From: a virus
Virus record (IMG/VR): IMGVR_UViG_3300012000_000043
Location: 1-41,713 of that record
Strand: one strand, 5' to 3'
DNA: 41,713 bases
Shown here: in pieces, positions 1 through 41,713 of the stretch
Layout: each line of letters starts with the position of its first letter
Position numbering within the stretch: position 1 is the first letter of the stretch
The notes under the pieces: generated by a model
What the model saw: only the letters and a program-made list of their open reading frames with translations
The model's database searches: none
What the model was told of the DNA's origin: nothing
Position numbers and translations under genes: made by a program

Positions 1-687
1 TCCCAGCCGTTCGTTGACTCAAAATTGGTTCAACTTGAAACGGCTGGAAGTTTGCAGAATGGTAAGAAAATTTGGGTATTGGCTAGAATAGTTGACAAGG
101 GTTCGGATATTCAAATCGCTGGCGACGATGTTGTGCGAAAATTTATCATGTTGTCAAATAGTCATGACGGTTCAACGGCCATTCGCGTGGGTTTTACGCC
201 GGTTAGGATTGTATGTGCTAACACTTTAAAGGCCGCTCACAATTCCGATGTTAGCCGGTTGTTAAGAATACGCCATACAAGGAATGCCCAAAGTGCTCTA
301 TTGGATATTCAAAACGCAGTTGACCTAATTAATCAGGAATTTTCTGCTACGGCTGAACTGTACCGATCAATGGCGGCCAAGCAAATAAACAGGAGTGACC
401 TCAAGGCGTACGTCAAGGTTGTGTTAGGCCATACTGACGCCGACGATCAATTGAGTACCCGCGCTAAGAATCAGATAGACCGGGTTATCAGCCTATTTGA
501 ATACGGACGCGGGAACAATCTACCCGGTGTTAAGGGTACTGTATGGGCGGCCTATAATGCTGTTACTGAATACTTGACTCATGAGGCTACCGATAACGCC
601 GACAAGCGATATTCCAGCCTATGGTTCGGGCAAAACTCAGCACGAAACGAACTGGCCTTGAATGAGGCCATGAAACTAGCGGCATAA
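1..687 (+). CDS. DUF932 (TIGR03299-like) phage/plasmid protein, C-terminal part
   Basis: This is the downstream 228 codons of a gene whose start lies at 41063 near the other end of the window. Joined across the circle it reads in frame as a 319-aa protein. The N-terminal part has the family hallmark GETPWHKLGT, and this part has the conserved VGFTPVRIVCANTL stretch at about residues 150-163. The family is common in phages and plasmids, and its molecular function is not established. It is first in a three-gene operon ending at a terminator near 1496-1525. The break here is an artefact of where the circle was opened, not a truncation. Family assignment is from remembered motifs. Confidence 0.85.
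   Translation, partial: SQPFVDSKLVQLETAGSLQNGKKIWVLARIVDKGSDIQIAGDDVVRKFIMLSNSHDGSTAIRVGFTPVRIVCANTLKAAHNSDVSRLLRIRHTRNAQSALLDIQNAVDLINQEFSATAELYRSMAAKQINRSDLKAYVKVVLGHTDADDQLSTRAKNQIDRVISLFEYGRGNNLPGVKGTVWAAYNAVTEYLTHEATDNADKRYSSLWFGQNSARNELALNEAMKLAA
3..376. repeat. Terminal direct repeat, left copy
   Basis: These 374 bases are identical to 41338-41711. The outermost bases differ (position 2 is C against T, position 377 is C against G), which is typical of ragged contig ends. The repeat lies wholly inside the DUF932 coding sequence, so it is best read as assembly overlap of a circular or circularly permuted genome, not as a dedicated terminal repeat. Confidence 0.95.
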
Positions 688-1495: not shown

Positions 1496-1525
1496 AACCC
1501 CGCCAGTGAGCGGGGTTTTTTATTT
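1496..1525 (+). terminator. Rho-independent terminator of the DUF932 operon
   Basis: A perfect 8-bp stem, AACCCCGC / GCGGGGTT, with a 6-nt loop is followed by a run of six T and then ATTT. It sits 16 bases after the 65-aa gene. This is one of the clearest terminators in the window. Confidence 0.9.
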
Positions 1526-1666
1526 GGTAGGGTTGACGCCAGTGACAATCGTTGAATTGATTGGGGATTGTGGGAAAATAGAGGGTTTTAGGGTTATAAG
1601 GGGATTTAAGGCGCTGGCGCTGATGGGGCTAGAATGGCCGCTGGCGCGCGGGAATGTTGTGAGGGT

Positions 1667-1735
1667 TAGAATGGTATAGAATGGCATAGAATCGTTAAAA
1701 TGGTATAGAATGGTATGGAATTGTATAGAATGGAT
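1667..1735. repeat. Seven tandem 10-bp repeats, consensus TAGAATGGTA (iteron-like)
   Basis: Units begin at 1667, 1677, 1687, 1697, 1706, 1716 and 1726. Six are 10 bp long and one is 9 bp. Two match the consensus exactly and the rest differ by one to four bases. A further partial copy, TAGAATGG, lies at 1630-1637. The 10-bp period puts each unit on nearly the same face of the helix, as for protein-binding iterons. AT-rich DNA follows directly. Confidence 0.85.
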
Positions 1736-1830
1736 CGGTGTTTTAATAGAAAAATAAAATCCTTTAAAATAATCAACCACTTATAATGGCCATTAAATAA
1801 AGACAACAATATCAGCAACTTACCTAAGCC

Positions 1831-1858
1831 CGTTCAATTAACAAATGTATTTTGAACG
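1831..1858. promoter_or_regulatory. Inverted repeat CGTTCAA / TTGAACG
   Basis: A perfect 7-bp inverted repeat with a 14-base AT-rich centre. It is too widely spaced to be a strong hairpin but has the form of an operator for a dimeric protein. It is one of four inverted repeats upstream of the terminase genes. Confidence 0.4.
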
Positions 1859-2106: not shown

Positions 2107-2138
2107 GGGGGGGTGGGGGGTAAATTGCAAAAGCAATT
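2107..2138. promoter_or_regulatory. G-rich tract (G7-T-G6) followed by AATTGC / GCAATT hairpin
   Basis: Bases 2107-2120 read seven G, one T and six G. Immediately after, AATTGC and GCAATT (2123-2138) form a perfect 6-bp hairpin with an AAAA loop. A run of nine T at 2157-2165 follows further on. Such a guanine run is unique in this window. Its place directly before the small terminase gene makes a pac/cos or recombination role conceivable, but nothing proves it. Confidence 0.5.
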
Positions 2139-2205
2139 GCATTGCTCCCTTCCAAATTTTTTTTTAAACTTAATCCACACCTCATTCTTTAATCACGGAG
2201 CAATT

Positions 2206-3072
2206 ATGTCTGGCAGGCCAAGGCTAATCCCCACGGGGGCTGAAAACGACTTATACGATGAAACAAACCCCACCTCTTTAATCAACCTTCTCCCGACCAG
2301 ACTTGTTCCTATCTTCAGGCGCGTTAGAACTAAACTACCCCGTATGATGTATTACAGCGAACGTGAGCTTCGTATGTACCTCAAGCCTGATGAACGTGAT
2401 GACCGTCTAAGGCTTTCATTCTGGGACGAATATAATGCTTCCACCGCCTCCGGCAAAAAGATGTCGATGCACACCATTATGAACGGATGTTGCGGTTGGG
2501 AAGTATGGGTTAGCGTCTACGAACCCAATAACCACAAGATGTGTTGGATCTTCTGTCCTCCGGCAAGCTACGCCAATCAAATGAAGGTTATTTTACAGCA
2601 TGGCATGGACCGCCTCTTAGAGATCATGCAGCTTCCTTTAACCAATAAAGACGGATCAGTTAATACCAAGGTGGCCACACTTGTTCTCAAGGCTTGGCAG
2701 TTAGCTGACATGCGCGTCAAAGGCGGCATCATTCAAAAGATGCAAGTTGAACAAAAGACCCTTCAAATTAACAGTACAATGGAAGAAGCCAAAGCCTTGT
2801 CTGTTTCTGGCATGGACATTCACGAACTTGAAAGCCTAGAAAAGCGTATCGAAAGGGCCAAGCGTGACCAAATGCGTTACCTCAAAGAACTAACCCCCGC
2901 GCAACGTGAATCCCTTCACCGTGGCGGCGAAGTCCTTGAGGATCTTGAAAACTATACTAAAATAGGTGACAGGACCAATTTTCCTGCCATTCCAGACCTG
3001 CCAGACGTTCCAGACGTGGACGTAGATTTAGAGGCTGAATATGATGAAACACAACAAGAATGCCAAGGCTAA
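2206..3072 (+). CDS. Putative terminase small subunit
   Basis: The product is 288 aa and begins MSGRPRLIPTG. The ATG at 2206 is chosen over an in-frame codon at 2014 because GGAG sits 5 bases upstream and the extension is non-coding in character. Small subunits recognise the packaging site and recruit the large subunit, and the gene lies directly before the large subunit, overlapping it by 32 bases. Residues of about 190-245 form a charged, probably coiled-coil helix, and the C-terminus is very acidic with a Pro/Asp/Val repeat. The sequence is longer than many small subunits and no clear helix-turn-helix was recognised, so the call rests mainly on position. Confidence 0.6.
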   Translation: MSGRPRLIPTGAENDLYDETNPTSLINLLPTRLVPIFRRVRTKLPRMMYYSERELRMYLKPDERDDRLRLSFWDEYNASTASGKKMSMHTIMNGCCGWEVWVSVYEPNNHKMCWIFCPPASYANQMKVILQHGMDRLLEIMQLPLTNKDGSVNTKVATLVLKAWQLADMRVKGGIIQKMQVEQKTLQINSTMEEAKALSVSGMDIHELESLEKRIERAKRDQMRYLKELTPAQRESLHRGGEVLEDLENYTKIGDRTNFPAIPDLPDVPDVDVDLEAEYDETQQECQG

Positions 3073-4684
3073 GAAGGCCGATCAGCAATCTCAGGCATTA
3101 AGAAGAACAAAAATGTCTTCAGCCTTAGCTGCTAGGGCTGTCAACATGGACCCACTTACTTATCAACAGACTTTAGTTAAAGCCCGTATCGAAGAACTAA
3201 AATCTGATTTACCGCACCTCTATGGCTGGAAGTGGTATCCGTGGGCAAAAGAATTTTTTGAATCACGAAACAAGATCAACCTTCTTTGTGCAGCTAACCA
3301 GATTGGTAAATCATCTACTGCCATTCGCAAAAATATCGAATGGGCATGCAACAAAAAGCTTTGGTCAGAACTATGGGAAACAGAACCAAAACAATTTTGG
3401 TACTTTTACCCAAGTTCAGAAATTTGTACGTCCGAAGTCGAAAAAAAATGGATACCTGAGTTTTTGCCACGCGGAGACATGAAAAATCACGAACAATATG
3501 GTTGGGAAATTGAGTACAGTGGATCAGACGTTGTAGCACTACATTTTCGCAGTGGGTGTAGTATCGTGTTCAAAAGTTATGGTCAGAAAACTTTGAACTT
3601 GCAAAGTGCGACCGTCCACATGATTACAGCCGATGAGGAAATGCCAGAAGAACACTTAAACGAATTACTAGCAAGGCTTCGCGCAACAGGCCCCGGTTAT
3701 TTCAACCAAGTCTTTACAGCGACCCGCGGTTTACAAGTGTGGTATCGCGCAATGGAATGTATCGGCACTTCTGAGGAAGTATTTCCTCACGCTTGGAAGC
3801 GAAGCGTGTCAATGCGTGACTGTCAATATTATACTGACGGAACACCAAGCAAATGGACTGATGAAAAGATCAAAGAGGCTGAAAGTTTTTGCAGTACCAA
3901 ATCAGAAGTCCTAAAAAGAATTGAAGGCCGATTTGTTCGTGACGAAGGCCGAAGATATTTGGCTTTCGACCCTGACCACAACACCCTTACACCAATAGAA
4001 GTTCCCAAAGACTGGCGCTACTATGCTGGCGTGGATATTGGTTCTGGCGGCAAGGGCCGTTCCGCCGGGGCGGTTGTTATTGTCGCTGTAAACCCAGAAG
4101 CCACTTCTGGGCGTGTTGTAAAAACATGGCGGGGGGACTACGAAGAAACCACGGCTAAAGATATCTTGGACAGATATAGAGATTTGACAAAAGGTATAGT
4201 AATTACACAGGCTTGCTACGATTATCAGTCTAGGGAATTTGGACTCATAAGCATGCGTTCTGGCGAACCATTTATGCCTGCCGACAAGAACCGTGATTCC
4301 GGCGAACAGATTTTGAATACTCTTTTTCAAAGCCGCGCTTTAACCATTGACGACGGGGCCTATGATAATCGTAAACTGGTAACAGAATTAATGTCAGTCC
4401 CGGCTGGAACCAAAAACAGAAAATACCAAGATGATTTAACTGATGCACTACGTTATGTGGTCAAGCTAATTCCTTGGGATTTCCCCAAGATAGCCCCCGG
4501 TAGCGGCCTTGATAAGTTGGAGGAACGTGATGACGTACCAAACGCAGAATGGACCGAACAAGAATTTGTTGCATGGGAAATCCGACAAAGGCGCGGAGAA
4601 ATTGACGAATTTGAAAGAAAAGACGAAAACTGGGCGGCCTTCCGGGACGAAGTTGAAGCATGGAACGAAATGTATGGAAGTTGA
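3041..4684 (+). CDS. terL: Terminase large subunit
   Basis: The 547-aa protein is the DNA-packaging motor ATPase and headful nuclease that docks on the portal. The ATPase part shows a Walker A variant AANQIGKSS at residues 84-92, a Walker B segment HMITADEE at 193-200 and a coupling motif FTATRG at 225-230. The RNase H-like nuclease part shows its acidic residues in GVDIGSG (D332), ACYDYQS (D394) and DDLTDALRY (D464/D465/D468). The start overlaps the small subunit gene, with GAGG 6 bases upstream. Length and motif order fit a typical full-length terminase. Confidence 0.95.
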   Translation: MMKHNKNAKAKKADQQSQALRRTKMSSALAARAVNMDPLTYQQTLVKARIEELKSDLPHLYGWKWYPWAKEFFESRNKINLLCAANQIGKSSTAIRKNIEWACNKKLWSELWETEPKQFWYFYPSSEICTSEVEKKWIPEFLPRGDMKNHEQYGWEIEYSGSDVVALHFRSGCSIVFKSYGQKTLNLQSATVHMITADEEMPEEHLNELLARLRATGPGYFNQVFTATRGLQVWYRAMECIGTSEEVFPHAWKRSVSMRDCQYYTDGTPSKWTDEKIKEAESFCSTKSEVLKRIEGRFVRDEGRRYLAFDPDHNTLTPIEVPKDWRYYAGVDIGSGGKGRSAGAVVIVAVNPEATSGRVVKTWRGDYEETTAKDILDRYRDLTKGIVITQACYDYQSREFGLISMRSGEPFMPADKNRDSGEQILNTLFQSRALTIDDGAYDNRKLVTELMSVPAGTKNRKYQDDLTDALRYVVKLIPWDFPKIAPGSGLDKLEERDDVPNAEWTEQEFVAWEIRQRRGEIDEFERKDENWAAFRDEVEAWNEMYGS

Positions 4685-30223: not shown

Positions 30224-30571
30224 ATGAAATTTCGTGGACTAGATGTTGATGATTTTATAGTCCTTGCCTTGCTTGCAAGCGGTGTATCCGTCACAGAAAT
30301 AGGCCGAAAGCTTCACATCACTCAACCAGCAATAAGCCAAAGGCTGTCCAAGATGAAAGATTTTCTTGGCGTACCTTTGGTTATTAGAAGTGGTCGCGGC
30401 GTAGTTTTAACGCCTTATGGAAGGTTTTTGAGCAACAGCGCCAAAGACATTTTACTCATCCTCATTCGCTCGCTCCCAGATCCAAGTGGCGATAGGCGGT
30501 GCGATAGTCTTATCCATGACATGTTCGGCAAAGCCAGCGATGGGACTACAGACAAAAGGAATGATGCCTAA
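30224..30571 (+). CDS. LysR-type DNA-binding domain regulator, stand-alone
   Basis: The 115-aa product carries a LysR-type winged helix-turn-helix over about residues 9-70, with SVTEIGRKLHITQPAISQRL holding the recognition helix and then GVPLVIRSGRGVVLTPYGR, the family's wing region. The normal effector-binding domain is absent, so this is a short DNA-binding protein. It is the only clear sequence-specific regulator of its type here. The last 40 residues are read antisense to the gene at 30452-31237. It may control the minus-strand block or late genes. Confidence 0.75.
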   Translation: MKFRGLDVDDFIVLALLASGVSVTEIGRKLHITQPAISQRLSKMKDFLGVPLVIRSGRGVVLTPYGRFLSNSAKDILLILIRSLPDPSGDRRCDSLIHDMFGKASDGTTDKRNDA

Positions 30572-34125: not shown

Positions 34126-34700
34126 TATTTGCCCCCTGTTTTTTCTTCGACGGTTAAATTTTCAAGCCTAACAAGATGTGCCCAAGAGAAATCCAAAGAC
34201 TTACTTTTCATATCGTCTTTTAGTTTTGCCGTATCTAGCACCCAGACTTCTTTTTTGGTTCTATATTCTTCTGGTACTAAACTTATTGCCTCATCGTCAA
34301 GAGCATGATCTGTAGACCACTTACGCTCAATGTCAACAACAAGCCTAGCAGGATTAAGACGTTTATAATAAGTTCGTTCGTTACCGCGGCCCTGTACTTC
34401 AGGAAATACATTCGCAAGGTAGATCGCATATTCTTTTAACCTTTCATATTTGTTTGACCAGCTTTTTGATTTGTCACGAAGCGCGTCTGCGCGTTCCTTC
34501 AGTGCGGCGGCTTGTCTTTTTGCCAGATCCATATAACCAAGTAAGCGGTCAACTTTTTCGTCTACCGATTTAATTTGAGCAAAATGCTGTTCGCACATAT
34601 CCAAAGTAATTTCATCGGCGGTATCAATTTGCTGTTCCATTAAGTGAAGAACGGACAGCATTTGTGCTAGTGTTTGTTTTTCTTCTTTGGCGGCGGACAT
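34125..34700 (-). CDS. Gp157-like protein
   Basis: The 191-aa protein resembles the siphovirus Gp157 family: an N-terminal helical half (about 20-100) with KERADALRDKSKSWSNKYERLKEYA, followed by a beta-rich end with RLVVDIERKW and VPEEYR. These proteins are often encoded beside recombination genes. Their activity is not well defined. It overlaps ERF by 1 base and the ribbon-helix-helix gene by 34 bases. Confidence 0.75.
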   Translation of the reverse strand: MSAAKEEKQTLAQMLSVLHLMEQQIDTADEITLDMCEQHFAQIKSVDEKVDRLLGYMDLAKRQAAALKERADALRDKSKSWSNKYERLKEYAIYLANVFPEVQGRGNERTYYKRLNPARLVVDIERKWSTDHALDDEAISLVPEEYRTKKEVWVLDTAKLKDDMKSKSLDFSWAHLVRLENLTVEEKTGGK

Positions 34701-34858
34701 GTTTTAAACTCCTTTCTATCTAAAAGATCCCGGATTGAAGCCCTTAAAGCCTGAGTAATACTTATGTCGCGATCTTCGCACCACCGTATTAGCTCCTTTT
34801 TCATCGCCCGTGGTAAAATACAATTGACCCTTTCGTAGTCTGTAGGCAGCGCGGCCAT
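34667..34858 (-). CDS. Ribbon-helix-helix-type DNA-binding protein
   Basis: The 63-aa product has the Arc/CopG-like pattern: a strand (VNCILPRAM), a helix (KKELIRWCEDR), then a turn and second helix (SITQALRASIRDLLDR). The end is basic. As first gene of the minus-strand recombination operon it may repress its own promoter near 34890-34918. The start has AAGGAGA upstream. Confidence 0.7.
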   Translation of the reverse strand: MAALPTDYERVNCILPRAMKKELIRWCEDRDISITQALRASIRDLLDRKEFKTCPPPKKKNKH

Positions 34859-34889
34859 TCATTGTCTCCTTTTTTTGATTGGGAGGAAA

Positions 34890-34918
34890 TTTTTACCATG
34901 TCAAAAAATCAAGTGCAA
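34890..34918 (-). promoter_or_regulatory. Possible promoter of the recombination operon
   Basis: On the minus strand TTGCAC is followed after 17 bases by TAAAAA preceded by TGG (extended -10). Transcription would begin about 20 bases before the ribbon-helix-helix gene. The -35 match is poor (3 of 6). It overlaps the start of the endolysin gene on the other strand. Confidence 0.3.
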
Positions 34919-35362
34919 GCAGTTAATCGTGATTACGCATTGCTGGCTCCCTTCTTTGCTAACGCTTTGAAATTAGCAATAAAAGAATGTCAGGACGAAG
35001 GTTATCCAATTGAAATGTTTGAAGGCTATCGAAGCCCAGAAAGACAAGATTACCTTTGGGAACAAGGCAGAACCAGAGAAGGGAAAATAGTCACACACTC
35101 ATCGGCGTGGAATAGCTGGCATCAATACGGACTTGCTGCCGATCTTGTTGGTAAAATTAATGGTAAATGGGATTGGTCTTTAGATTACGATAGAATCGAA
35201 CAGATTATGAAAGAACACGGTTTTGAATCATTAAAATTTGAGCGTGTTCATTTTCAAATGACTGGCGGCATGAAAATAAAAACAGCAAGGGAAATTGCTG
35301 AAAAACATGGCGTCCAAATTGTTTGGCAAAAAGTTGTTGAACTGTCAAAATTAGACAGCTAA
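34898..35362 (+). CDS. Endolysin, M15-family peptidase
   Basis: The 154-aa protein has the M15 (VanY / L-Ala-D-Glu peptidase-like) pattern: GYRSPERQ (43-50), SWHQYGLAADLVG (73-85) with H75 and D82 as zinc ligands, and FERVHFQM (114-121) with E115 and H118. It cuts peptide cross-links of peptidoglycan. GGGAGG lies before the ATG at 34898. No signal peptide is present, so export needs a holin. It lies alone in front of helicase genes, away from the holin-like genes. Confidence 0.88.
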   Translation: MSKNQVQAVNRDYALLAPFFANALKLAIKECQDEGYPIEMFEGYRSPERQDYLWEQGRTREGKIVTHSSAWNSWHQYGLAADLVGKINGKWDWSLDYDRIEQIMKEHGFESLKFERVHFQMTGGMKIKTAREIAEKHGVQIVWQKVVELSKLDS

Positions 35363-35390
35363 GTTCACCGCACAAATCACAAAAACAAAA

Positions 35391-35415
35391 ACCTTGGCGT
35401 TTAACCAAGGTCTTT
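35391..35415 (+). terminator. Hairpin after endolysin (possibly bidirectional)
   Basis: ACCTTGG and CCAAGGT form a perfect 7-bp stem with a 7-base loop. It is flanked by an A-rich run upstream and TCTTTGCTT downstream, so it is only moderately terminator-like. It could separate endolysin expression from the helicase operon. Confidence 0.5.
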
Positions 35416-35461
35416 GCTTCCCTACTAACTATAGTTTACTTGGTTTTTCAGGAGAAATTCA

Positions 35462-35863
35462 ATGAAAAAAATAGCAATCACATTGCGCGGAGAATTAACG
35501 CTAGACGACGAAAACAATGTTGTCGGATTTAATTTCATCGCTCCAAACGCACCGGAAAAAATAAGAGTCAAAAAAGAAAAAAAGACGGCCAGATCAGCCG
35601 CTACTTGGGAAGCATACGCCGATGCCTATAAACGTGTTTATGGCATTCTACCATTGCGTGACAGGCAAATGAATATGACGCTTTTAAAATTTGTTGAATC
35701 CCTTGGCGAAGCTGATGCCCCTGAGTTTTGCAAGTGGTATTTGTCCAAGAATGATTTCGATGTGGTTCAGCGCCGTCACAGTGTTGATTGGTTGTGGTAT
35801 AATCGTGAACGCTACTTCGCAGATTTCCGTGGCGCTAAAAAGAATCTAGGAAACGAACTTTGA
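35462..35863 (+). CDS. Putative replication accessory (helicase loader-like)
   Basis: The 133-aa product lies directly before the DnaB-like gene, and the helicase start codon overlaps its stop (TTGA). The C-terminal two thirds form a helical domain (WEAYADAYKRVYGILPLRDRQ and then FCKWYLSKNDFDVVQRRHS). Such domains occur in phage primosome or loader proteins, but I cannot assign the family firmly. AGGAG lies before the ATG. Coupling with the helicase is the main clue. Confidence 0.5.
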   Translation: MKKIAITLRGELTLDDENNVVGFNFIAPNAPEKIRVKKEKKTARSAATWEAYADAYKRVYGILPLRDRQMNMTLLKFVESLGEADAPEFCKWYLSKNDFDVVQRRHSVDWLWYNRERYFADFRGAKKNLGNEL

Positions 35864-37128
35864 CCACAGAAAATATACATGACGTGGTTCTGGGGTTGAT
35901 TTTAAAAGACCCTAAGAACCTAGACGAAGCTGTCACTTGTGGACTGAACGAAGACCACTTCGACGGCTGGCATAAACAGGTCTATGCCACTTTCTCAGAA
36001 ATGAGAAAAGAAAACATAGAGCCAAACTTTATGAACGCATGTATGAGGATGCCTAGCCTTGTAACAAATCTAGTCAACCTTATCGAAGTAAGCCCCGTTG
36101 GAGTTAACTTTGGTTGGTACTGTAACCAATTGATAACCGTTTCAGCCCTGAAGAAAAAGGCCATGGATTTACAAGCCATTGCCCAGTCTATGCTCAAAAT
36201 GACTTACGCCGAAAGCCCAGATCCAGTCATTAACCTTGTACACAAGGCATTAAGTGAAATACAGGATTTAAGCCGCTCAGACGACAAGGCTACCCGGTTT
36301 ACGGAGAAGCTATTAGACGACACGCTGAAGCGCATAGAATCGCGTATAACCGATTTTAAAGAGGGGAAACTGCGTGGCATTCAGACAGGTATTCCCAAGC
36401 TAGATGAGAACACCACAGGCTTTGTAGGCGGTCGTTTCTACATTATCGCCGCCCGGACATCGGTAGGTAAGACCACGTTCGCCAACTTCTTAGCTATGTC
36501 AGCCTTGTTACAAGATAAGAATGTCCTTATTTTCAGTAACGAAATGGATGGCGAAGACTTGGTTGAAAAGCTAATCAGTAAGCTAACGGCCATTGATTCT
36601 AAGCGGATACAAACAGGCGACTTGCACGATAGTACACTCACAAGAATTGTAGAAAAGGTTAATGAACTTGCCAAGTTAAGGCTAGGAATTAACCAGCACT
36701 ACGGCTGGAGATTAGAAACCCTAGAATCAGAAATCTACAAGCAACACCGCGCCGGTCGCTGCGACATTGTATTTGTGGATTATACCCAACAGGTTAAGTT
36801 TAGCAGTAAGACCAAGCATGAACAGGTTAGCGAAGTATCAGACCGTCTGAAACGGATTAGTCGCGAATTAAATATTCCCGTTGTCGGGTTGGCTCAGATT
36901 AACCGCGAAACAGAAAAAGGCGGCGTTAGCGTCATGCCCGGATTGGCCCAATTAAAAGATTCTGGAAGCCTTGAACAAGATGCCGACGTGGTTATGATCC
37001 TTCACAAAGAAAGAATTAGCGACGAATCTACGGTGTTAAATCTAGCTAAAAATCGTCATGGAAAAACAGGTATTATTAACCTCATTCACCACATATCTAT
37101 TCACGATTACAGCCAAGCGCCGGGCTAG
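35860..37128 (+). CDS. DnaB-like replicative helicase, TTG start
   Basis: The 422-aa protein has an N-terminal DnaB-type helical domain (about 5-110) and a RecA-like C-terminal domain with Walker A ARTSVGKTT (198-206), Walker B IVFVDYTQQ (303-311, D307), LAQINRE (344-350), SGSLEQDAD (368-376) and AKNRHGKTG (396-404). It would unwind the fork and organise host primase and polymerase. The reading begins with TTG at 35860, in a TTGA overlap with the preceding stop and AGGAAA upstream. The 3' end overlaps a minus-strand gene by 32 bases. Confidence 0.92.
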   Translation: MTTENIHDVVLGLILKDPKNLDEAVTCGLNEDHFDGWHKQVYATFSEMRKENIEPNFMNACMRMPSLVTNLVNLIEVSPVGVNFGWYCNQLITVSALKKKAMDLQAIAQSMLKMTYAESPDPVINLVHKALSEIQDLSRSDDKATRFTEKLLDDTLKRIESRITDFKEGKLRGIQTGIPKLDENTTGFVGGRFYIIAARTSVGKTTFANFLAMSALLQDKNVLIFSNEMDGEDLVEKLISKLTAIDSKRIQTGDLHDSTLTRIVEKVNELAKLRLGINQHYGWRLETLESEIYKQHRAGRCDIVFVDYTQQVKFSSKTKHEQVSEVSDRLKRISRELNIPVVGLAQINRETEKGGVSVMPGLAQLKDSGSLEQDADVVMILHKERISDESTVLNLAKNRHGKTGIINLIHHISIHDYSQAPG

Positions 37129-37672
37129 GCGATTCATATTCAGCCGAACGATAAGGCATATTGGTTTTAAGCATGACGTGGCTGCCGTCAAAGTCAGCAT
37201 TACTTTTCTCATGCCAAAGCAAATAGTTGTTGGGCTGCAAACAAAATTGACCGTTATTTAGTTTAATTAGGTGTAGGCATTTATGCTCATGCGCCACTTC
37301 TGCGGTCGTCCCAATGCCCGACCAGTCAAAGGTTGTTATGTACTGGCCTTCGACATTCTGAAGTTTGAGGCAGCGCACACGTTGATTATAAAGCCACTGG
37401 TAGGTGATTACTTCCATGTCATGGCTTGGGCAATCCCAAGGCTGAAGCTCATGGAGTTTGAATTGTGGAACCGCAATAGTGGGTTCCCTGAATGATGAAA
37501 TGGGAAGACGATAATATACCGCGCCGTTATTTAATTGGCAATGAAATAAAATCACGCGGCCCGGCAAAGAACACGCCCCGAAGATTCGGCACTCCATTGT
37601 ACCCGCAAGCGCGTTATTAGTCAAAGATGTGCGGTTGACGTGGGTGTAAATTATAGGGGTGTTGACGTTCAT
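37097..37672 (-). CDS. Conserved phage protein of unknown function
   Basis: The 191-aa product (IIYTHVNRTSLTNNALAGTMECRIFGACSLPGR) strongly recalls a phage family with the same opening and a middle containing VILFHCQLNNGAVYYRLPIS, and later KCLHLIKLNNGQFCLQPNN. The role is not known to me. Several conserved Cys and His residues are present. It is read toward the helicase gene, overlapping its end. Confidence 0.65.
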   Translation of the reverse strand: MNVNTPIIYTHVNRTSLTNNALAGTMECRIFGACSLPGRVILFHCQLNNGAVYYRLPISSFREPTIAVPQFKLHELQPWDCPSHDMEVITYQWLYNQRVRCLKLQNVEGQYITTFDWSGIGTTAEVAHEHKCLHLIKLNNGQFCLQPNNYLLWHEKSNADFDGSHVMLKTNMPYRSAEYESPSPALGCNRE

Positions 37673-40321: not shown

Positions 40322-40507
40322 TTAGTCGTCTAAGATGTCGATTATGCCTTCGTCGATGAGATCCTCAATTGCTTCGCGCATGGATGATTCTTGGACCTTG
40401 GCCTTTAGGTGAATCGTCGCGCTGGAGATCATTTCCATGATGCGAACTAGGTCGTCTTCTAAGATCATAAACCAGCGCCCGTGACTCATTTCCAATTCCA
40501 ATCTCAT
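40322..40507 (-). CDS. Small acidic hypothetical protein
   Basis: The 61-aa product is helical and acidic (EDDLVRIMEMISSATIHLKAK and EAIEDLIDEGIIDILDD). No good ribosome-binding sequence lies before its ATG. TATGAT sits about 10 bases upstream on the minus strand, with TCAACA 18 bases further, so the mRNA leader may be very short. It is the first gene of the phosphoesterase operon and may be a small DNA mimic or regulator. No family is recognised. Confidence 0.5.
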   Translation of the reverse strand: MRLELEMSHGRWFMILEDDLVRIMEMISSATIHLKAKVQESSMREAIEDLIDEGIIDILDD

Positions 40508-40516
40508 TTTATTAAA

Positions 40517-40575
40517 ATCATAGAATCTTTTTAAAATGATTGTTGATTCTATTAATCTTTTAAAATGGCAACTGA
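40517..40575. repeat. Two direct repeats with AATCTTTTAAAATG core
   Basis: Copies near 40517 (AATCATAGAATCTTTTTAAA, ending ...TTGA) and 40548 (ATTCTATTAATCTTTTAAAA, ending ...CTGA) share the core and spacing. A third copy is at about 40905 (TTAATAGAATCTTTAAAATA, ending ...TTGA), and a weaker fourth lies at 1744-1782 in the other control region. The TAGAAT part is shared with the 10-bp array at 1667-1735. Confidence 0.5.
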
Positions 40576-40611
40576 TTAAAAAGCGTTAGCTTTCAGTCAT
40601 ACCATTCTGCC

Positions 40612-40664
40612 GGGGAAATTGGAAATTCAATTTCAATTTTGAATTTTGGAATTTCAAAATCCCC
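40612..40664. repeat. Long imperfect inverted repeat
   Basis: GGGGAAATTGGAAATTC and GAATTTCAAAATCCCC (with small mismatches) form the arms of a roughly 53-base AT-rich palindrome. It has the look of a replication-origin or cruciform element. There is no T-run suited to termination of a known transcript. Confidence 0.45.
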
Positions 40665-40837
40665 AAAATAGCCTTATAGGGGTTTTTGTCTAAGGGTGAA
40701 AAGCTAAGTGGGCGATTTTATTGGAGTGCGTTGTAAGTCTATGATTTGATTTGAGAATCTGCGCTGTTTTTTTAGGGTTTTTTCCTAGTTCAATGGAAGG
40801 CGCTGAATTGATTGAAGTATACATAACTATTTTTCCC

Positions 40838-40863
40838 TAAAAACAACCCAAGGCGCGGGTTGT
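40838..40863 (-). terminator. Minus-strand terminator-like hairpin
   Basis: On the minus strand ACAACCC / GGGTTGT (7-bp perfect stem, 7-base loop) is followed by TTTTAGGG, giving five T after the GGGTTG. It would stop antisense transcription coming from the DUF932 gene. No minus-strand gene needs it, so its purpose is unclear. Confidence 0.4.
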
Positions 40864-41015
40864 GGGCATAGAATCGCATAACATTCATACAATGTCAACA
40901 ATTTTTTAATAGAATCTTTAAAATAGTCCATTGATTTTAAGGGTTTTTAATTGGCCTTTAATTTGCATAGAAATAATTAGTAAAGTTTTAAAATACTTTA
41001 CCGAATAGACTGGTA

Positions 41016-41032
41016 GGGAAAATGGTTTTCCC
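41016..41032. promoter_or_regulatory. Perfect inverted repeat GGGAAAA / TTTTCCC (operator candidate)
   Basis: Seven-base arms around a 3-base centre, 30 bases before the DUF932 start. An imperfect palindrome, AAAGTTTTAAAATACTTT (40982-40999), lies just upstream. Both could be binding sites controlling this operon. Confidence 0.45.
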
Positions 41033-41062
41033 AATCAAAACAACCTTTAAAGGGGAATAGTT

Positions 41063-41713
41063 ATGGCACATCAAGTCGAATCTATGTTCTATGTAGGCGA
41101 AACACCTTGGCATAAATTGGGTACAGTGTTACCGGAGGCGCCGACAATCAGGGAAGCCATTGTCGCTGCTGGCCTTGATTGGACGGTTAGCACTAGGGCA
41201 CTTTACTTGAACCAAGGCGACAAAATGGTAGCAGTGGATGATGCTAAGGCCATTGTTAGGGATTCTGATAACTCTTGCCTTGGGGTTGTGGGTAGCCGTT
41301 ATGTACCACTTCAGAACGATGTTAGTTTTGATTTTTTCCAGCCGTTCGTTGACTCAAAATTGGTTCAACTTGAAACGGCTGGAAGTTTGCAGAATGGTAA
41401 GAAAATTTGGGTATTGGCTAGAATAGTTGACAAGGGTTCGGATATTCAAATCGCTGGCGACGATGTTGTGCGAAAATTTATCATGTTGTCAAATAGTCAT
41501 GACGGTTCAACGGCCATTCGCGTGGGTTTTACGCCGGTTAGGATTGTATGTGCTAACACTTTAAAGGCCGCTCACAATTCCGATGTTAGCCGGTTGTTAA
41601 GAATACGCCATACAAGGAATGCCCAAAGTGCTCTATTGGATATTCAAAACGCAGTTGACCTAATTAATCAGGAATTTTCTGCTACGGCTGAACTGTACCG
41701 ATCAATGGCGGGC
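41063..41713 (+). CDS. DUF932 (TIGR03299-like) phage/plasmid protein, N-terminal part
   Basis: The ATG at 41063 has AAAGGGG 7 bases upstream. The reading frame is open to the end of the window (217 codons) and continues in the copy at the start of the window, giving 319 aa. The N-terminus MAHQVESMFYVGETPWHKLG matches the family start, and VVGSRYVPLQN follows near residue 75. From 41338 on, this duplicates 3-376. The family's function is unknown. Phage members are often near replication or early genes. Confidence 0.88.
   Translation, partial: MAHQVESMFYVGETPWHKLGTVLPEAPTIREAIVAAGLDWTVSTRALYLNQGDKMVAVDDAKAIVRDSDNSCLGVVGSRYVPLQNDVSFDFFQPFVDSKLVQLETAGSLQNGKKIWVLARIVDKGSDIQIAGDDVVRKFIMLSNSHDGSTAIRVGFTPVRIVCANTLKAAHNSDVSRLLRIRHTRNAQSALLDIQNAVDLINQEFSATAELYRSMAG
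41338..41711. repeat. Terminal direct repeat, right copy
   Basis: Identical to 3-376 over 374 bases. It shows that the sequence is circular or circularly permuted, with a unit length near 41,335 bp. Confidence 0.95.

Follow-up and report, generated by a model that had tools for sequence, protein, structure and literature searches.

A phased array of 10-bp direct repeats upstream of the terminase genes of an uncultured phage as a possible iteron-like replication origin

Results

Seven direct repeats of about 10 bp, set in helical phase in a non-coding gap upstream of the terminase genes, may form a lineage-specific, iteron-like origin of replication comparable to oriR of phage SPP1, a reading to which we assign a probability of roughly 0.4. 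The sequence studied, called the window throughout, corresponds to a 41,713-bp virus record in IMG/VR from an uncultured phage; its ends overlap by 378 bp, of which 376 are identical, closing it into a circle of 41,335 bp. The contrast between the replication module of this phage and those of its relatives is the most useful result of the analysis, turning a loose resemblance into a testable question.

The array and its gene setting

The array is placed in a 726-bp non-coding gap, with a 65-aa open reading frame and its terminator on one side and, about 470-540 bp downstream of the array, the candidate small-terminase gene (terS, starting at 2206) on the other.

1..687, plus strand: C-terminal part of a DUF932/TIGR03299 gene, which starts at 41063 and crosses the circle junction
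1496..1517, plus strand: intrinsic terminator 3' of the 65-aa reading frame, DUF932 operon
1551..1750, plus strand: C-depleted, G-rich segment holding the array (73 G, 14 C)
1630..1637, plus strand: lone eighth core copy, exact TAGAATGG, 37 bp upstream of the array, with flanks alignable with those of the relative L004
1667..1735, plus strand: seven direct repeats of about 10 bp, consensus TAGAATGGTA, starting at 1667, 1677, 1687, 1696, 1706, 1716 and 1726
1741..1800, unstranded: AT-rich, easily melted segment adjoining the array, candidate unwinding element
2206..3072, plus strand: candidate terminase small subunit, 288 aa, assigned from its position and conserved linkage to TerL
3041..4684, plus strand: terminase large subunit, TerL (phrog_2, 2.5e-15)

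The terS candidate had no convincing match in Pfam or PHROG, and Rfam returned no match. A minus-strand reading frame at 1520-1780 was rejected as a gene, its translation being of low complexity.

The seven helical-phase repeats of the original prediction were confirmed at exactly the position claimed. TRF reported 1667-1733 with a period of 10, 6.8 copies, the consensus TAGAATGGTA and a score of 92, as well as a period-29 version scoring 101; these are the highest scores in the window, and the array is the sole one of its type in the genome. The units, in order TAGAATGG, TAGAATGG, TAGAATCG, TAAAATGG, TAGAATGG, TGGAATTG and TAGAATGG, are spaced by 10, 10, 9, 10, 10 and 10 bp, with core positions T1, A4, A5, T6 and G8 constant in 7/7 units and the remaining positions varying. 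The 10-bp self-match of the array was 40/55 compared to a maximum of 34 in simulated genomes, and none of 200 order-2 Markov genomes reached the array when the self-match maximum was taken over periods 6-30. The array is therefore a real feature, and it shows the multiple direct repeats in helical phase that are expected of an iteron origin. Arrays of comparable grade (period 9-12, at least 4.5 copies, score of at least 80) numbered 6 in 1.57 Mb of fetched viral DNA, about one per 260 kb, from which about 0.16 would be expected in a genome of this size; the array is rare, yet not unheard of.

Composition and stability of the surrounding DNA

The AT-rich DNA predicted beside the array was also borne out, as 1741-1800 ranks third among the least stable 60-bp segments of the whole map and would supply the adjacent unwinding element of an iteron origin. 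Of the four least stable 60-bp sites, two more fall in 40506-41062, a stretch of AT-rich intergenic DNA upstream of the DUF932 gene that carries TAGAAT/TAAAAT pairs. The segment holding the array, 1551-1750, is the most skewed and C-depleted 200 bp of the map, and the minus strand of the array folds no better than shuffled sequences. A change in skew near the array, proposed earlier as a sign of replication start, did not appear in support of an origin: the cumulative extremes of GC skew, at 30.4 and 38.8 kb, track gene orientation, for which reason GC skew was dropped as an origin test, and third-position skew gave no pattern pointing to the array.

What relatives keep in the gap upstream of terS

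A search with TerL in IMG/VR yielded 16 loci at 70-74% identity, and an alignment search for TerL relatives brought the number to 57 loci altogether; no TerL relatives were found in GTDB genomes, using two peptide patterns, or among the named phages of INPHARED. The phased 10-bp array was not present in the terS gaps of the relatives at 70-75% TerL identity, an outcome that the original prediction had listed as speaking against it. The sole relative with a counterpart, faint and unphased, is L004, which shares the palindrome flank of the window; its tract here is poor in C (60 G, 9 C), shows no 10-bp phase and gave a weak local alignment with the window segment (63% over 105 columns, E 0.03). 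Scanning with the palindrome-flank pattern returned the contig of L004 only, leaving L004 as the closest relative of the gap to compare. Where the gap is not conserved, the relatives carry unrelated short repeats. Two other elements of the gap recur:

1832..1857, unstranded: conserved palindrome (C)GTTCAATTAACAnATGTnnnnTGAAC(G), common to the terS-upstream gaps of relatives
2107..2120, plus strand: conserved G-tract GGGGGGGTGGGGGG, then TTGCATTGC.CCC, candidate packaging site

In close relatives the palindrome follows the pattern GTTCAATwAACAnnTGTnnnnTGAAC. It is also found in L196, L199, L200, L201 and L202, where similarity in TerL is distant or not detected, and L200 (45 bp x3) and L199 (32 bp x2.3) have other direct repeats on one side of it, at a distance of a few hundred bp. 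The G-tract takes the form G6-8 N G4-6, with TTGCATTGC.CCC after it in the close clade, and is present between -1350 and -850 from TerL in 13/30 loci, including every close-clade locus that holds the region, compared to only 6 occurrences elsewhere on the same strand in 319 kb. From these comparisons, the conserved elements of the gap are the palindrome and the G-tract, not the array, and together they suggest a role in packaging or late-gene control.

Besides the window (2107-2150), the loci carrying the G-tract are L004, L006, L007, L011, L012, L015, L017, L056, L061, L063, L065, L081 and L094. It keeps a fixed position upstream of terS and is present down to about 40% TerL identity, making it a candidate cos or pac element in a lineage without a named phage. 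Fur-box-like sequences (GATAATGAGAATCATTCTC) are found beside it in the terS-upstream gap of L012 (4877-4921) and L056 (about 600-740).

Replication module and candidate binding proteins

The original prediction had stated that no initiator was recognizable in this genome. A DnaB-like helicase and, directly before it, a homolog of the C-terminal part of O-type initiators were found, and the statement holds for the N-terminal part, which is missing.

34667..34858, minus strand: 63-aa ribbon-helix-helix-like (RHH) protein (Pfam RHH_1 0.037, below cut-off)
35462..35863, plus strand: 133-aa homolog of the O-type initiator C-terminal part, gene directly before the helicase
35860..37128, plus strand: DnaB-like replicative helicase (Pfam DnaB_C 7.7e-63, phrog_19 6.1e-75)

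The 133-aa protein matches residues 208-293 of 333 in phrog_11527 and, in Pseudomonas phage O proteins, again the C-terminal part; no relatives of it were found in IMG/VR. Both the N-terminal part of an initiator and in-gene repeats are absent from this syntenic slot, and no tandem repeats were detected in 34700-37200, where an O-type origin would have them inside the initiator gene. An HMM of the relatives' initiators, used to search for the N-terminal part, gave as its best profile match a 61-aa reading frame at 40322-40507 (minus strand, 40325-40585) with an E of 0.0024, which we regard as weak.

Three independent relatives, G001, G002 and G003, share with the window the gene order RHH, VanY, initiator, helicase (in G002 the RHH protein was recognized by eye), and each has an initiator-type gene, of 294, 279 and 267 aa, respectively, directly before a DnaB-like helicase. 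The initiators of G001 and G002 match the PHROG families replication initiation protein, O-like initiator and DnaD-like helicase loader, and that of G003 matches phrog_11527, the family also matched by the 133-aa protein of the window. All three genes contain direct repeats with a period of 11 bp, AGAACCATCGG x5.6, GACCACAAACG x4.7 and CCCTTCATGCA x2.8, that have nothing in common with one another in sequence, and the O gene of Pseudomonas phage LESphi3 likewise has repeats inside it. By analogy, these in-gene repeats are probably the origins of the relatives. Since they too share no sequence, the lack of conservation of the array is weak evidence against its being an origin. The initiator-gene repeats of the relatives did not recur in their terS gaps. 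Across a wider set, 30/48 helicase loci have a tandem array within 1.8 kb before the helicase, some of these being simple hexamer runs. The initiator-type genes of the uncultured relatives L108, L110 and L109 have in-gene direct repeats with an 11-bp period and wholly different unit sequences.

Of the proteins put forward as binders of the array, neither DUF932 nor the RHH protein was singled out by the comparison, as the RHH-like protein is conserved in relatives that do not have the array and no counterpart of DUF932 was detected in those array-less relatives. A partition NTPase (ParM/ParA), as would accompany the RHH protein of a ParR/parC-like centromere, was not found among the part of all reading frames that was searched, and the RHH-like gene is about 8 kb from the array. 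A 115-aa protein encoded at 30224-30571, where the late gene block ends, has as its sole domain a LysR-type HTH (Pfam HTH_1, 7.6e-14).

Similar arrays elsewhere

No named phage or plasmid matched the array in BLAST, a search in which low-complexity filtering may mask repeats. A two-unit array pattern returned 26 stretches from IMG/VR, several of them the same sequence copied, a number that is about chance by a rough estimate; none of the 26 encodes a relative of the window proteins tested. With a three-unit pattern, the one case in GTDB was a rumen bacterium whose TAGAATGGAA array is perfect, in an unrelated context. The phage contig L026 has a three-unit TAGAATGGCA array at about 3200-3270, on the opposite strand at the start of an apparent small-terminase gene, which we take as unrelated, the resemblance being perhaps coincidence. 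A similar array after an operon in L023 was also set aside as unrelated.

Discussion

Alternative readings of the array

Given the position of the array between two transcription units and after a terminator, it could instead be an operator array, at which a phage regulator binds TARAAT-type sites both here and upstream of DUF932 and controls an early-to-late switch or terS transcription. Bearing on this, ATAGAATCTTTAAAATAG at 40909..40926 on the plus strand, upstream of the DUF932 gene, is identical to array units 3-4 (1686-1703) at 16/18 positions, a match reached by 2/200 shuffles; in addition, TAGAAT is one base off the -10 consensus and the phage encodes an RHH-type protein. However, sigma-70-like promoters in the region are not above chance (2 found compared to 2.7 expected in shuffles), relatives without the array still conserve the RHH protein, the array is 470-540 bp or so upstream of terS, and tandem TARAAT pairs outside the array occur at about chance level genome-wide, for which reason a genome-wide regulon of such pairs was dropped. 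We consider regulation by this route rather unlikely. Slippage in a fast-evolving, C-poor spacer, running from the terminator to the conserved elements, would give a neutral or nearly neutral tandem repeat, and the location of the array in the non-conserved part of the gap, where relatives have unrelated short repeats, is consistent with this, as are the C-poor tract of L004 (60 G to 9 C), which is without a phased array, and the similar TAGAATGGAA array in one unrelated bacterial genome. Slippage does not readily account for a core that is constant across the seven units amid variation at the remaining positions, an almost constant phase with a single 9-bp step, or the separate eighth core copy, and we judge this origin of the array to be improbable, a little more so than an operator.

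Placement directly upstream of terS also raises the question of packaging, in which case the array would be part of a pac/cos element within the region recognized by TerS, like the direct repeats near terS in SPP1. In that phage, pac takes in direct repeats and promoters as well as the beginning of the small-terminase gene (PMC4737164), and a G-tract of this gap is conserved near terS in the 13/30 TerL loci described above. It is the G-tract at 2107, about 370 bp from the array, that holds the conserved position beside terS expected of a pac or cos site, whereas the array is absent in relatives; moreover, the DNA-binding domains of SF6 TerS do not read pac repeats specifically (PMC4737164). 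A packaging function for the array itself is quite improbable. Least probable of all, and in our view very much so, is a Rho-utilization (rut) site for leftward transcripts, suggested by a minus strand that is C-rich, G-poor and unstructured with regular pyrimidine-C steps. The plus strand here is the most C-depleted of the genome, the minus strand folds no better than shuffles, and L004 has the same skew at the same place, but no leftward gene or promoter to be served is known and the composition is possibly incidental.

The array as an origin

An iteron-type origin remains the leading single reading, at the probability given above, although not on the grounds given in the original prediction. 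The array is not conserved and no skew supports it. Counted in its favor are the rarity of the array as the sole one of its type, the unstable segment adjoining it, and the absence from the window of the in-gene repeats that G001-G003 have. Counted against it are the absence of the array in relatives, the lack of a skew signal, the conserved elements in the gap that resemble packaging or late-control sites, the operator-like recurrence of the array sequence upstream of DUF932, and the fact that the initiator-gene repeats of the relatives are not repeated in the terS gap. Because the in-gene repeats are missing and a single phased array stands beside an easily melted segment, the origin reading is kept, with the origin placed outside the initiator gene.

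In this proposed origin, a DNA-binding protein of the phage would occupy the seven sites, all facing one side of the helix, either by itself or together with the 133-aa homolog of the initiator C-terminal part; the AT-rich segment 1741-1800 would melt after binding of the array and serve as the loading site of the DnaB-like helicase. We infer these steps of binding, melting and loading; the array, the unstable segment and the missing initiator N-terminal part and in-gene repeats are observed. The array would in this way replace an origin that the relatives probably carry inside the initiator gene. A more specific version, which we regard as doubtful, is that the O-type initiator was cut to its C-terminal part and the origin lies at the lineage-specific 10-bp iteron array by the packaging genes, served by a different DNA-binding protein, in effect an origin and an initiator split in trans. 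If true, the phage would illustrate the separation and rewiring of an origin and its initiator; were the array not the origin, replication would begin at some other site, in a phage without a repeat-bearing initiator gene.

Comparison with known systems

Plasmid iterons are usually 17-22 bp. The array resembles plasmid iteron origins in having phased direct repeats beside AT-rich DNA, and differs from them in its 10-bp unit and in that a Rep protein was not found. An origin inside the initiator gene is the textbook picture for lambda-type phages, and the lambda/P22-type arrangement is approached by G001-G003 and LESphi3, with their in-gene repeats, and by the window through the C-terminal homolog in the syntenic slot; in contrast, the repeats of the window are about 7.5 kb along the circle from the initiator-slot gene, upstream of terS. 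Direct repeats upstream of the small-terminase gene are a likeness to pac of SPP1/SF6 (PMC4737164), but the array lies some 470-540 bp away from terS and is not conserved; in the gap of this family it is the G-tract that is conserved.

The comparison with SPP1 replication is the one closest to the reading preferred here. SPP1 has oriL inside the initiator gene 38 and a second origin, oriR, about 13 kb away, each consisting of direct repeats and an AT-rich region (PMC6316719). The two systems differ in that gp38 is intact and binds repeats within its own gene, whereas the homolog in the window is without the N-terminal part and its gene is repeat-free. The likeness is to oriR: in both phages, direct repeats and an AT-rich segment are found away from the initiator gene, and the helicase of the window is related to G40P of SPP1, with 28% identity.
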